From NCBI GenBank assembly GCA_902765305.1, contig CACWZI010000065.1, positions 1 to 55,642 on the forward strand: 55,642 nt of DNA, written 5' to 3'. Positions 39,405-43,669 of this stretch are shown piece after piece. Position numbers and translations under genes: made by a program. Each line of letters opens with the position of its first letter. Positions within the stretch are counted from its first letter, which is position 1. The stretch comes from an uncultured Eubacteriales bacterium (GTDB lineage: Bacteria > Bacillota > Clostridia > Christensenellales > Aristaeellaceae). The notes beneath the pieces were generated by a model. That model made no database searches, had not been told where the DNA came from, and was given only the letters and a program-made list of their open reading frames with translations.

Positions 39405-40796
39405 ATGGGAAAATATTTCGGCACTGACGGCTTCCGGGGAGAGGCCAACGTCACACTCACGGCGGACCACGCCTATCAGGTGGGGCGCTTCCTGGGCTGG
39501 TACTACAGCCAGCAGCGGCGCTTCGCCGGCAACCGGGAGAACGCGAAGATCGTCATCGGCAAGGACACCCGCCGCTCCTCCTACATGTTCGAATATGCGC
39601 TGATCGCGGGTCTGACGGCCAGCGGCGCGGACGCCTACATGCTCCACGTCACCACCACGCCCAGCGTGGCCTGGGTGACCCATGCCGACGAGTTCGACTG
39701 CGGCATCATGATCTCGGCCTCCCACAACCCGTTCTACGACAACGGCATCAAGCTCCTGGACGGCAACGGCGAGAAGATGGGCGAGGACACCATCAAGCTG
39801 ATCGAGGACTACCTGGACGGCAAGCTGAACGTGTTCGGCCAGCAGGTGAAGGAGCTGCCCTTCGCCCTGAAGGAGCACATCGGCGAGACCGTGGACTATG
39901 TCAGCGGCCGAAACCGCTACGTGGGCTACCTGATCAGCCACGGCCTGTACAGCTTCCGCGGCCTGCGGGTGGGCCTGGACTGCGCCAACGGCGCTTCCTG
40001 GATGATCGCCAAGGCCGTGTTCGAGGCGCTGGGCGCCCGCACCTTCGTGATGGGCGCGGAGCCCAACGGCACCAACATCAACAACGGCGTGGGCTCCACC
40101 CACATCGAAGCCCTCCAGCAGTTCGTGCTGGACAACCACCTGGACGTGGGCTTCGCCTACGACGGCGACGCCGACCGCTGCCTGGTGGTGGACGAGAAGG
40201 GCGACGTGCTCACCGGCGACCACATCATGTACGCCTACGCCTGCTACATGCAGGATCGGGGCAAGCTGGTGGACAAGCCCGTGGTGGCCACGGTGATGAG
40301 TAACTTCGGCCTGTTCAAGGCGCTGAACGAGCGGGGCATTGACGTGGTCAAGACCAAGGTGGGCGACAAGTACGTCTACGAGTACATGACCACCCACGGC
40401 TGCCGCCTGGGCGGCGAGCAGAGCGGCCACATCATCTTCTCCAAGTACGCCACCACCGGCGACGGCATCCTCACGTCCCTCAAGATGATGGAGTGCATGC
40501 TGGCCCGCAAGAAGAAGATGAGCGAGCTGTGCGAGGGCTTCCAGATGTACCCCCAGGAACTGATCAACGTGAAGGTCTACGACAAGGCCGAGGCCCAGGC
40601 CGACCCCGACGTGCAGGCTGCCGTCAAGGCCGTCGCCGACCAGCTGGGCGAGAAGGGCCGCATCCTCGTGCGGGAATCCGGCACCGAGCCGGTGGTCCGC
40701 GTGATGGTGGAGGCCGAGAGCGACGACATGTGCCTGGAGCTGTGTCAGAGGGTCGTGGACGTGATCAAGGCCAAGGGGCACGCGGTGAAGGACTGA
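39405..40796 (+). CDS. glmM: Phosphoglucosamine mutase
   Basis: A 463-residue phosphohexomutase that interconverts glucosamine-6-phosphate and glucosamine-1-phosphate. The phosphoserine loop is IMISASHNPFYDNG (Ser106 before HNP), the Mg site is YDGDADRC, and the substrate loop GGEQSGHII and phosphate-binding RESGTEPVVRVMVE are present. The SGE/GEQSGH pattern and position in the operon favour GlmM over phosphomannomutase. It starts two bases after nagB. Confidence 0.95.
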   Translation: MGKYFGTDGFRGEANVTLTADHAYQVGRFLGWYYSQQRRFAGNRENAKIVIGKDTRRSSYMFEYALIAGLTASGADAYMLHVTTTPSVAWVTHADEFDCGIMISASHNPFYDNGIKLLDGNGEKMGEDTIKLIEDYLDGKLNVFGQQVKELPFALKEHIGETVDYVSGRNRYVGYLISHGLYSFRGLRVGLDCANGASWMIAKAVFEALGARTFVMGAEPNGTNINNGVGSTHIEALQQFVLDNHLDVGFAYDGDADRCLVVDEKGDVLTGDHIMYAYACYMQDRGKLVDKPVVATVMSNFGLFKALNERGIDVVKTKVGDKYVYEYMTTHGCRLGGEQSGHIIFSKYATTGDGILTSLKMMECMLARKKKMSELCEGFQMYPQELINVKVYDKAEAQADPDVQAAVKAVADQLGEKGRILVRESGTEPVVRVMVEAESDDMCLELCQRVVDVIKAKGHAVKD

Positions 40797-40841
40797 CATC
40801 ATCTATAGCCTGAATCTATAACCTACAATATAAATAGAGTA

Positions 40842-40871
40842 TTGGACAAACCACGCCTCCTGCGGTATGCT
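40842..40871 (+). promoter_or_regulatory. Promoter of the metY leader
   Basis: TTGGAC (40842-40847), an 18-nt spacer and TATGCT (40866-40871). The transcript should start near 40878, only about a dozen bases before the leader's ribosome site. Confidence 0.7.
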
Positions 40872-40904
40872 TTATTCAACAAAGCGAGCAAGGAGATGAT
40901 GGCG

Positions 40905-41015
40905 ATGACGAGGCAGCACGGAAGGCTGTTGCTGGTCACGCGGATGGCAACCGACCGAATGTGCCGGTGTCAACGCGGCAAATCACCCATCATCGATACC
41001 GACAGGAGGCTATAA
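40905..41015 (+). CDS. Leader peptide with Cys codons, upstream of metY
   Basis: A 36-codon reading frame (MTRQHGRLLLVTRMATDR, then Met-Cys-Arg-Cys, ending IIDTDRRL). AAGGAG (40890-40895) is nine bases before the ATG at 40905; two in-frame ATGs lie just upstream (40896, 40899). Cys codons 20 (TGC) and 22 (TGT) sit just past the middle. The last codons AGG-AGG-CTA-TAA contain the ribosome site of metY, and the stop is two bases before the metY ATG, so leader translation must affect metY initiation. The layout matches Cys-codon leader peptides known from actinobacteria that sense cysteine supply. The regulatory role is inferred. Confidence 0.75.
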   Translation: MTRQHGRLLLVTRMATDRMCRCQRGKSPIIDTDRRL

Positions 41016-41017
41016 AA

Positions 41018-42322
41018 ATGTCTGATATTCGTTCTTCCAAAAACTGGGCCTTTGAAACCCGCCAGCTGCACATCGGCCAGGAGAGCGCCGATCCCGTCAC
41101 CGACGCCCGGGCAGTGCCAATCTATGCGTCCACTTCCTTCGTGTTCCACAACAGCCAGCACGCCGCCGACCGCTTCGGCCTGCGGGACGCCGGCAACATC
41201 TACGGGCGGTTGACCAACCCCACCAACGACATCTTCGAGCAGCGCATCGCCTCTCTGGAGGGGGGCTCGGCGGCGCTGGCGGTAGCCAGCGGCGCGGCGG
41301 CCATCAGCTATACCTTCCAGGCGCTGGCACGGTCCGGCGAGCACATCGTCGCCTCCAAGACCATCTACGGCGGCACCTATAACCTTCTGGCTCATACGCT
41401 GCCGCTGACCAGCGGCATCACCACAACCTTCGTGGACCCGGAGGTGGACGGCAGCTTCGAGGCGGCCATTACCGACAAGACCAAGGCGCTGTTCGTGGAG
41501 ACCCTGGGCAACCCCAATTCCAACCTGGTGGACATCGAGGCCGTCGCCGCCGTCGCCCATCGTCACGGAATCCCGCTGGTGGTGGACAGCACCTTTGCCA
41601 CGCCGTTCCTTGTGCGGCCCATCGAATGGGGCGCGGACATCGTGGTGCACAGCGCCACCAAATTCATCGGCGGGCACGGCACGGCCATTGGCGGAGTGAT
41701 CGTCGAGGGCGGCAAGTTCGACTGGAAGTCCGGCGGCAAATATTCCTGGATCGCCGAGCCGAATCCCAGCTACCACGGCGTGTCCTTTGCCGACGCGGTG
41801 GGTCCGGCGGCCTTTGTCACCTATATCCGCGCCATACTGCTCAGGGATACCGGCGCGACGCTGTCGCCGTTCCACGCCTTCATCTTCCTGCAGGGGCTGG
41901 AGACCCTGTCGTTGCGGGTGGAGCGCCACGTTTCAAACGCGCTGAAGGTGGTGGATTACCTAGCGAAGCATCCCCAGGTGGAGGCGGTGCACCATCCCTC
42001 GCTGCCCACCGAGCCCAGCCACGCGCTGTACGGCAAGTACCTTCCGGGTGGCGGCGGCAGCATATTCACCTTTGAGATCAAGGGCGATGCGGCGAAGGCG
42101 CAGAAGTTCATCGACAACCTGCCCATCTTCTCGCTGCTGGCCAATGTGGCAGACGTGAAGAGCCTGGTGATCCACCCGGCCAGCACCACCCACAGCCAGG
42201 AGACCGAGGCCGAACTGGCCCAGCAGGGCATCAAACCCAACACCATCCGCCTGTCCATCGGCATCGAGAAGGTCGAGGACCTGATCGCGGCGCTGGATGT
42301 CGCATTCAAGAGCATAGCGTAA
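41018..42322 (+). CDS. metY: O-acetylhomoserine sulfhydrylase (Cys/Met metabolism PLP enzyme)
   Basis: A 434-residue PLP enzyme that joins sulfide and O-acetylhomoserine to make homocysteine. The PLP lysine lies in VVHSATKFIGGHGTAIGG, and the N-terminal part shows YASTSFVF, IYGRLTNPTNDIFEQRIA and GAAAISYTFQALARSGEHIV, typical of the MetY branch (about 430 residues, longer than MetB/MetC). The ATG at 41018 is used; its ribosome site is inside the leader peptide gene. cysK follows in the same direction, so the two probably share sulfur control. Confidence 0.94.
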   Translation: MSDIRSSKNWAFETRQLHIGQESADPVTDARAVPIYASTSFVFHNSQHAADRFGLRDAGNIYGRLTNPTNDIFEQRIASLEGGSAALAVASGAAAISYTFQALARSGEHIVASKTIYGGTYNLLAHTLPLTSGITTTFVDPEVDGSFEAAITDKTKALFVETLGNPNSNLVDIEAVAAVAHRHGIPLVVDSTFATPFLVRPIEWGADIVVHSATKFIGGHGTAIGGVIVEGGKFDWKSGGKYSWIAEPNPSYHGVSFADAVGPAAFVTYIRAILLRDTGATLSPFHAFIFLQGLETLSLRVERHVSNALKVVDYLAKHPQVEAVHHPSLPTEPSHALYGKYLPGGGGSIFTFEIKGDAAKAQKFIDNLPIFSLLANVADVKSLVIHPASTTHSQETEAELAQQGIKPNTIRLSIGIEKVEDLIAALDVAFKSIA

Positions 42323-42707
42323 TGTAGCGGCGGCTACCAGCCGCCACCCAGGCACGACAAACCATGTAGCGGCGGCTATCAGCCGCCACCCAGGCACGAC
42401 AAACCATGTAGCGGCGGCTACCAGCCGCCACCCAGGCACGACATACCATGTAGCGGCGGCTATCAGCCGCCACCCAGGCACGACATACCATGTAGCGGCG
42501 GCTACCAGCCGCCACCCAGACACGGCATGACCCGTAGCGGCGGCTATCAGCCGCCACCCAGGCACGACATACAGCCGCCACCCAGGCACGGCATACCATG
42601 TAGCGGCGGCTACCAGCCGCCACCCAGGCACGGCATACCATGTAGCGGCGGCTACCAGCCGCCACCCAGGCACGATCGCCATGGCGCCTGATAGGCGCCG
42701 CTACAGA
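42323..42707. repeat. 42-bp tandem palindromic repeat array
   Basis: Eight full units and one unit 14 bases short, period 42, each starting TGTAGCGGCGGCTAyCAGCC (unit starts 42323, 42365, 42407, 42449, 42491, 42533, 42599 and 42641; short unit 42571-42598). The y position alternates C,T,C,T,C,T in the first six units, pointing to growth by an 84-bp dimer. Each unit holds a palindromic core GGCGGCTxxCAGCCGCC and a linker ACCCAGGCACGrCATACCA. The array ends with an inverted copy (GGCGCCTGATAGGCGCCGCT). No gene lies in the 417-base spacer. Confidence 0.93.
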
Positions 42708-42739
42708 GAATGTATTGAATATCGAGAGGAGCGACCCAC

Positions 42740-43669
42740 ATGTCCAATATCTATAAGAGCGCGGACCAGCTGATCGGCAAAACGCCGCTGCTGGAGCTGA
42801 CCCACATCGAGGCGGCGGAGGGGCTGAAGGCCCGGGTGCTGGCGAAGCTGGAATACTTCAATCCCGCCGGCAGCGTGAAGGACCGCATCGCCAAGGCCAT
42901 GATCGACGACGCCGAGGCCAAGGGCCTGCTGAAGCCCGGCTCGACCATCATCGAGCCCACCTCCGGCAATACCGGCATCGGCCTGGCGGCGGTGGCTGCG
43001 GCCCGGGGCTACGACATCATCATCGTCATGCCCGAGACCATGTCGGTGGAGCGCCGCCAGCTGATGCTGGCCTACGGGGCGAAGCTGGTGCTCACCGAGG
43101 GCGCGAAGGGCATGAAGGGCGCCATCGCCAAGGCGGACGAGCTGTCGAAGGAGATCGAGAACAGCTTCATTCCCGGCCAGTTCGACAACCCCGCCAATCC
43201 GAAGGCCCATGTGGAGACCACCGGCCCCGAGATCTACGCCGATACCGACGGCGAGGTGGACATCTTCGTGGCCGGCGTGGGCACCGGCGGCACGGTGACC
43301 GGCGTGGGCCAGTACCTGAAGTCGAAGAAGCCCGGGGTGAAGGTGGTGGCCGTGGAGCCGGCGAGCTCCGCCGTGCTGTCCACCGGCGTGGCCGGGGCTC
43401 ACAAGATCCAGGGCATCGGCGCCGGTTTCGTGCCGAAGGTGCTGGATACCGGGGTGTACGACGAGATCATCACCGTCACCAACGAGGACGCCTTTGCCAC
43501 CGGACGGCGGATCGGCCGGCAGGAGGGCGTGCTGGTGGGCATTTCCTCCGGCGCGGCGGCCTGGGCGGCCATCGAGCTGGCCAAGCGCCCCGAGAACGCC
43601 GGCAAGACCATCGTGGCGCTGCTGCCGGATACCGGGGACAGGTACCTGTCGACACCACTGTTTGAATGA
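42740..43669 (+). CDS. cysK: Cysteine synthase
   Basis: A 309-residue PLP enzyme that makes cysteine from O-acetylserine and sulfide. The PLP lysine is K47 in [12 protein letters not shown]; the substrate loop is [11 protein letters not shown], the phosphate-binding loop [10 protein letters not shown], and the C-terminal [10 protein letters not shown] is present. GAGAGGAG precedes the ATG. It follows metY across the 42-bp array. Cysteine and homocysteine synthesis are thus side by side. Confidence 0.96.

Follow-up and report, generated by a model that had tools for sequence, protein, structure and literature searches.

In the analysed window (the whole stretch of 55,642 nucleotides) the metY gene is preceded by a small open reading frame (ORF) that is a real and conserved leader, and its conserved heart is an Arg-Met core, encoded as CGA-ATG, rather than the pair of cysteine codons that follows this core. 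The genomic context of the Arg-Met leader is methionine and sulfur supply. On balance, we favour the view that it is a cis-acting leader peptide, and that a ribosome pause or arrest at CGA-AUG sets the output of metY or metQ through RNA folding. If this is correct, the leader would represent an element controlling methionine supply that is widespread among gut-type Clostridia, for which T-boxes and S-boxes are the expected form of methionine control. The locus has the following features (positions of the window):

40804–40820, no strand assigned: TATAG-N7-CTATA dyad 5' of the promoter, operator candidate (by eye)
40843–40871, plus strand: promoter of leader and metY, TGGACA-17-TATGCT (motif search; recurring -35 region by eye)
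40890–40895, plus strand: Shine-Dalgarno (SD) sequence of the leader, AAGGAG (from the sequence)
40905–41015, plus strand: leader ORF MTRQHGRLLLVTRMATDRMCRCQRGKSPIIDTDRRL, start ATG 40905, stop TAA 41013–41015 (from the sequence and relatives)
40956–40961, plus strand: constant core, Arg18 (CGA 40956) and Met19 (ATG 40959) (conservation, comparison across order and class)
40962–40970, plus strand: Cys20 (TGC 40962–40964), Arg21 and Cys22 (TGT 40968–40970), immediately 3' of the core (from the sequence; Cys enrichment)
41004–41009, plus strand: SD sequence of metY, AGGAGG, within the end of the leader frame (from the sequence; likewise in relatives L003 and L004)
41018–42322, plus strand: metY, O-acetylhomoserine sulfhydrylase-type, a Cys/Met metabolism PLP-dependent enzyme (PF01053, E 1.2e-127; orthologues)

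The leader comprises 36 codons, with the Cys-Arg-Cys stretch in mid-frame. Its start at ATG 40905 is kept in the two closest relatives, L003 and L004, neither of which keeps the ATG at 40896 or that at 40899; the frame is open back to TTG 40842, but this codon lies within the promoter. The promoter matches the consensus at 9 of 12 positions and is weak by itself, as the search gave one site versus 0.5 in shuffled sequence; by eye, TATTGGACA or TATTTGACA is seen ahead of most metY orthologues of the genus. The name O-acetylhomoserine sulfhydrylase for the metY product is our assumption from knowledge of the family. All elements named in the original prediction are present in the sequence, i.e. 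the promoter, AAGGAG, the 36-codon frame, Cys20 and Cys22, the in-frame AGGAGG, and a TAA that ends two bases before the metY ATG. That prediction had also taken AGG-AGG as the last codons of the leader; the metY ribosome site does lie inside the frame, but a CTA codon comes after AGG-AGG.

The dyad upstream of the promoter is a possible operator, for a LysR-type regulator or another one. Imperfect TATAG-N7-CTAT dyads were seen by eye before the promoter in other members of the genus, including leaderless species (e.g. L009, L010). At the other end of metY, a tandem array of 42-base units (GTAGCGGCGGCTACCAGCCGCCACCCAGGCACGACA...) begins at the gene end and extends over positions 42322–42675, each unit appearing by eye as a GC-rich hairpin; the array is the source of weak Rfam matches such as Prion_pknot.

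An Rfam search of positions 40600–42800 up to an E-value of 1 gave 12 weak matches, none over the gathering score: ten near the repeats behind metY, one in the upstream gene and one in the leader (CRISPR-DR12, minus strand, E 0.21). The same search in 20 related loci, up to an E-value of 0.5, gave no match. A T-box or SAM riboswitch was absent from both result sets and is rejected, in agreement with the earlier statement that neither occurs here. No plus-strand terminator was found between the leader and metY in the window, and a search of the window's own genome for a second copy returned the window itself only. Neither the window leader nor those of two relatives matched any NCBIfam or Pfam family.

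A protein-sequence search with the leader was clear for two relatives only, because the leader is short; these share 69 and 67% identity with it and keep the frame. Within the genus, an SD-led small ORF with the CGA-ATG core was found by script at 18 of 26 metY loci (L002–L026 and L126). No core was found at the other eight, which retain metY, and in these the promoter lies, by eye, a few tens of bases 5' of the metY start. The leaders of the genus end in various forms (...LLSRNRM-stop, ...LLSVNRM-stop, ...NVNRMCR, and ...TDRMCRC in the window). A genus core pattern, outside which the window leader itself falls, gave 18 matches in 17 of 28 genomes, and its reversed control gave none. Judged from their positions, 17 of these matches belong to metY loci, the exception being G015:C120. 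Within the genus, the end of the leader overlaps the metY ribosome site in L002–L004 only. The overlap that had been predicted as a design feature is thus present in the window and seen in three close species only.

In the wider order, an SD-led small ORF with the CGA-Met core precedes metY at no fewer than 61 of 97 loci. This number is a lower bound, because some metY starts are misplaced (e.g. L152, L157, L164, L167); the script found no core at the remaining 36, some of which it misread. The main leader type has the consensus L[VL]RxNFRFGRM(C). Scanning genome contigs (genome_contigs) for MGNNNNRAYTWYMGNNNNGGNCGAATGTG gave at least 120 stretches, with 80 among those listed, so that the spread seen is again a lower bound. 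Among these 80 listed loci, the downstream gene is metY in 56 and encodes an NlpA-family lipoprotein (PF03180) in 12, this being the family of MetQ. One of the 12 NlpA proteins is a fusion with a family 3 solute-binding protein, and among five NlpA loci two are cut by the end of the stretch and one breaks off after 81 residues. Other genes follow the leader in three of the 80 (L223, LytTR; L290, URO-D; L300, family 3 solute-binding protein), in a further three (L235, L285, L297) the leader lies at the edge of the stretch, and six were judged to be chance matches (L227, L239, L241, L243, L276, L279). By title, the 74 non-chance listed loci belong to Clostridia or other Bacillota in all cases but L283 and L290. 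As the loci are related, none of these counts represents independent events.

The L290 leader, MKFFFEKLVRENFRNGRMCLCCLFN, is found on a contig titled Treponema, before a URO-D family gene; it may reflect transfer outside the Clostridia, or the contig may be misbinned. A leader of the same Arg-Met type, MTDLLITLNRKNYRFGRMCCRWH, stands ahead of the S component of an ECF-type transporter at L213 (G639:C42), and may hint at the substrate of this transporter.

The Arg-Met element is conserved not only as a peptide but also as a codon. The genome_contigs scan had CGA fixed in its pattern and therefore gives no evidence on codon choice, which was instead assessed in three comparisons with the arginine codon left free. 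SD-led small ORFs upstream of the 97 metY loci of the order contain 70 Arg-Met dipeptides, of which 61 are encoded with CGA, one per locus at 61 loci; of the nine others, three belong to different small ORFs and six precede the CGA core of their own leader. In 381 genomes of the class, a pattern with the arginine codon free gave 30 matches in 28 genomes. All 27 matches with CGA precede metY (25) or a gene for a NlpA/MetQ-type lipoprotein (2, confirmed by Pfam), and none of the three matches with another codon precedes either gene. The backward control of this pattern gave 13 matches (counted by hand), and therefore the class comparison rests on context and CGA bias and not on the number of matches. 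A broader class pattern, TNARYNNNRAYCGNATGTG, gave 41 scattered matches, which were taken to be mostly chance. Finally, 294 genomes of the order gave 69 matches with the arginine codon free: all 24 whose position falls at a metY locus have CGA-ATG, as does the match at L213, and three further CGA matches, among the eight non-metY ones checked, either fall within coding sequence or have no fitting context. None of the other 37 is CGA-ATG. Because all three comparisons give CGA at the core, it is the codon itself that is held, and not the residue alone. At two other conserved arginine positions of the 27 class leaders, CGA is used one and three times, and it accounts for 23 of the 360 arginine codons in 12 long ORFs of the window. 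The N-F-R-F-G residues of the order leaders are constant while their codons vary. A constant, locally rare CGA within a motif conserved at the peptide level is unusual.

The codon after the core methionine is usually UGN, i.e. Cys or the stop UGA. In 60 leaders of the order it is Cys in 29, a stop in 14 (13 TGA, 1 TAA), Leu in 4, Arg in 4, Pro in 3, Trp in 2, Tyr in 2, His in 1 and Phe in 1, so that the bases after AUG are mostly UG whether they specify Cys, stop or Trp. Over the first six positions 3' of the core, cysteine makes up 71 of 238 codons, versus 81 of 6369 codons in the 12 long window ORFs, and the preferred codon differs as well (51 TGT and 20 TGC after the core, versus 7 TGT and 74 TGC in these ORFs). 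By script, 17 of the 60 leaders have no Cys codon at all, and Cys codons as the only sensor are rejected; Cys is a frequent but dispensable companion of the core. A second CGA-TGT (Arg-Cys) was observed in the tail of main-type order leaders with Gly before the core (n = 23), in which CGA encodes the tail Arg at +4 in 10 of 11 cases, and TGT the Cys at +5 in 11 of 11.

The original prediction had placed a cysteine-codon leader before metY and suggested aligning related loci for conservation of its frame and Cys codons. A leader ahead of metY beyond chance stands, as the frame is kept in near relatives and the core recurs before metY in both order and class. The frame is conserved in the two near relatives, but the feature that stays constant is CGA-ATG and not Cys: the Cys codons, thought to be the key, are enriched 3' of the core but missing from a good part of the leaders.

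The RNA downstream of the core was compared in a set of 100 leaders, in both halves of which one locus occurs (L165 = L282, with identical leader). From the scan, 41 loci had a usable metY start after the six chance loci had been dropped; L273 (>260 nt) was left out, as were L148 (same locus as L110) and L121 and L124 (no metY match by script). The word CCCGG occurs 14 times within the 60 nt downstream of the core, and in 11 leaders it stands exactly at +13 from CGA, as part of a CTCCCGGGC-like antiterminator segment. The segment of these 11 leaders can pair over 7–12 nt with an arm starting about 80–137 nt downstream, which is predicted to be able to form a terminator-like hairpin instead. 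In the predicted fold of the full RNA, segment and arm pair in 9 of 11 leaders, and when the first 20 nt are hidden the terminator-like hairpin is formed in 10 of 11; L144 and gL229 have the terminator in both states, and gL258 has it in neither. Terminators are a minority among the relatives, with 7 of 100 leaders found by the automatic terminator finder. Five of these belong to the 11-leader class, to which the other six were added by eye via the shared segment. The class, from which L125 and L292 were excluded, is therefore one chosen through this segment.

In the 82 other leaders, hiding the core as if covered by a ribosome makes the start region of the gene more accessible by prediction, with a rise of 0.083 versus 0.023 when the stretch is shuffled, and the gain exceeds 0.1 in 32% of the 82 leaders versus 12% of 328 controls. 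In the window and its two relatives, the predicted accessibility is unchanged (mean 0.62 and 0.62). Of 111 leaders, 17 have an anti-core 6-mer of CACATTCG in the stretch from the core to the gene, versus a mean of 3.2 for permuted words, the best of which reached 15 (0 of 351 reached 17), and in 13 of these 17 the word stands 22–31 nt before the gene start. Per leader, pairing of the core is weak, with p<=0.05 reached by 10 of 100 leaders versus about 5 expected, and there is no anti-core signal in the window trio and no clear one in most leaders. Pairing between core and anti-core as a universal mechanism is rejected on that account. Outside the window trio, the predicted geometry of the downstream RNA would be compatible with ribosome pausing at the core.

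We propose that ribosomes translating the leader would pause or arrest at a single invariant site, the Arg(CGA)-Met(AUG) core, under the joint effect of a CGA codon read through inosine and of the nascent chain, which is ...L[VL]RxNFRFG in leaders of the main type and ...LLSxN in a large part of the window's genus, and that the position of the ribosome would decide the fold of the downstream RNA and thereby the level of metY or metQ. The analysis establishes that the leader is conserved, that its codon is constrained and in which genomic surroundings it lies, and it predicts the RNA geometry; that the leader is translated and that a pause occurs, as well as the signal for this pause and its direction, we infer. 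In one class the choice would be between terminator and antiterminator, and in the other it would consist in the freeing of the start region of the gene. In the three-species variant of the window, translational coupling probably takes the place of these folds, because only two bases separate the end of the leader from metY. What is sensed is probably the status of sulfur amino acids. Judging from the size of its footprint, a ribosome would cover most of the antiterminator segment when AUG is in its P site, and would leave most of it free when CGA is in its A site. The two RNA classes suggest, by prediction, opposite signs: with AUG in the P site a pause would switch the gene off in the terminator class, and a pause would switch it on in the start-region class. 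Control through slowed ribosomes or the nascent peptide, as originally predicted, is probably at work.

Classical attenuation by starvation would also produce a stalled ribosome, at the core Met or the following Cys codons whenever charged tRNA is short, raising metY and metQ with no part played by the nascent chain. We regard this as possible though rather doubtful. Every core has a Met codon, the Cys enrichment lies just behind it, the targets are methionine biosynthesis and, judged by protein family, methionine uptake, and the freeing of the start region when the core is covered has the right sign; however, a single Met codon offers little to a codon sensor, the leaders lacking Cys are at odds with it, and it leaves both the conserved NFRFG peptide and the CGA codon unexplained. 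At the opposite extreme, CGAAUGUG might be an RNA element that acts by base pairing, its reading frame being incidental. The position-specific anti-core words and the UG that mostly follows AUG, irrespective of its meaning, would suit such an element, but the peptide upstream of the core keeps its residues in frame while codons vary, SD and start are kept, and most leaders, the window's included, have no clear anti-core; we consider it very improbable.

The constant CGA could itself be the sensor. When sulfur is plentiful, C32 of tRNA-Arg(ICG), the sole reader of CGA, would be thiolated, CGA would be read poorly, and the ensuing pause would lower metY and metQ, whereas under sulfur shortage CGA would be read well, a scheme to which we give little credence. 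According to a review, as far as its consulted part goes, the E. coli tRNA-Arg(ICG) is unable to bind CGA once it carries s2C32 (PMC5372741). In the window's genome (assembly 93% complete) the tRNA-Arg anticodons around all 42 tRNA matches are ACG, CCG, TCT and CCT; as there is no TCG among them, CGA would be read through inosine, and C32 is, by eye, present in the ACG tRNA. A TtcA model matches in 60 of 60 relatives, but all of these matches fall short of the curated cut-off, and the model also matches in 11 of 14 control genomes, including B. subtilis, so that the hits may be other relatives of the enzyme. In the consulted part of a study of Vibrio cholerae, s2C32 was found only in tRNA-Ser(GCU) by the method used (PMC12588516), which also speaks against this scheme. 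Moreover, a ribosome that pauses while CGA occupies its A site would cover just the first bases of the antiterminator segment, and the conserved peptide would be left unexplained. Were this scheme, which our analysis makes possible but not likely, to be true, the leader would be a one-codon sensor of sulfur status, its passage reporting tRNA thiolation and setting methionine synthesis and uptake across the Clostridia.

In the open-access literature searched, the string FRFGRM occurs in no paper and no earlier description of the Arg-Met leader was found. The MTO1 arrest sequence of Arabidopsis CGS1 controls a related PLP enzyme, one that serves methionine synthesis, by way of the nascent peptide; it differs in being eukaryotic, in lying inside the coding sequence and in its residues. 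Among bacterial systems, the cysteine leader peptides of actinobacteria (cys operon, cbs; poly-Cys short ORFs of mycobacteria) are similar in that a short ORF with Cys codons precedes sulfur amino acid genes and attenuation-type control has been proposed, according to the consulted sections of both sources (PMC1262725, PMC13236596). These leaders have runs of Cys codons near the stop, in Mycobacterium without conserved terminators (PMC1262725), and translation attenuation of cysteine genes in M. smegmatis is cited in the corresponding section of PMC13236596. A Cys-bearing leader outside the actinobacteria, which the original prediction had called noteworthy, is indeed found here. It belongs to another phylum, however, with a constant CGA-Met, optional Cys, and metY and metQ-type targets, and a Cys run near the stop is not a conserved feature of Arg-Met leaders; the consulted part of PMC1262725 makes no mention of an Arg-Met core. 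The metL leader of metNIQ in Streptomyces lividans, MSTTSDRTPATEATTTPGARCMCRRMCAF, ends in RRMCAF and thus shares a methionine transporter target and Arg-Met-Cys near its end, a likeness that we take as resemblance only (PMC8079986, consulted part).

Arrest peptides such as TnaC and SpeFL resemble the Arg-Met leader in being short, in having conserved residues near the end of the core and in controlling amino acid metabolism. When TnaC stalls, Pro24 occupies the P site and UGA the A site, and the same article also describes SpeFL (PMC8429421, consulted part); a UGA stop stands directly after the core in 13 of 60 Arg-Met leaders. A fixed Arg codon is not mentioned for either in that part of the article, and arrest on the Arg-Met leader is putative, the observation being the conservation of N-F-R-F-G-R-M. 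Classical attenuators with an intrinsic terminator are a poor match, given the absence of a plus-strand terminator between leader and gene in the window and the 7 of 100 relatives with a terminator. As in leader peptide and uORF attenuators in general, a short 5' ORF is conserved together with its downstream gene, at 61 of 97 loci in the order and for 27 of 27 CGA matches in the class.
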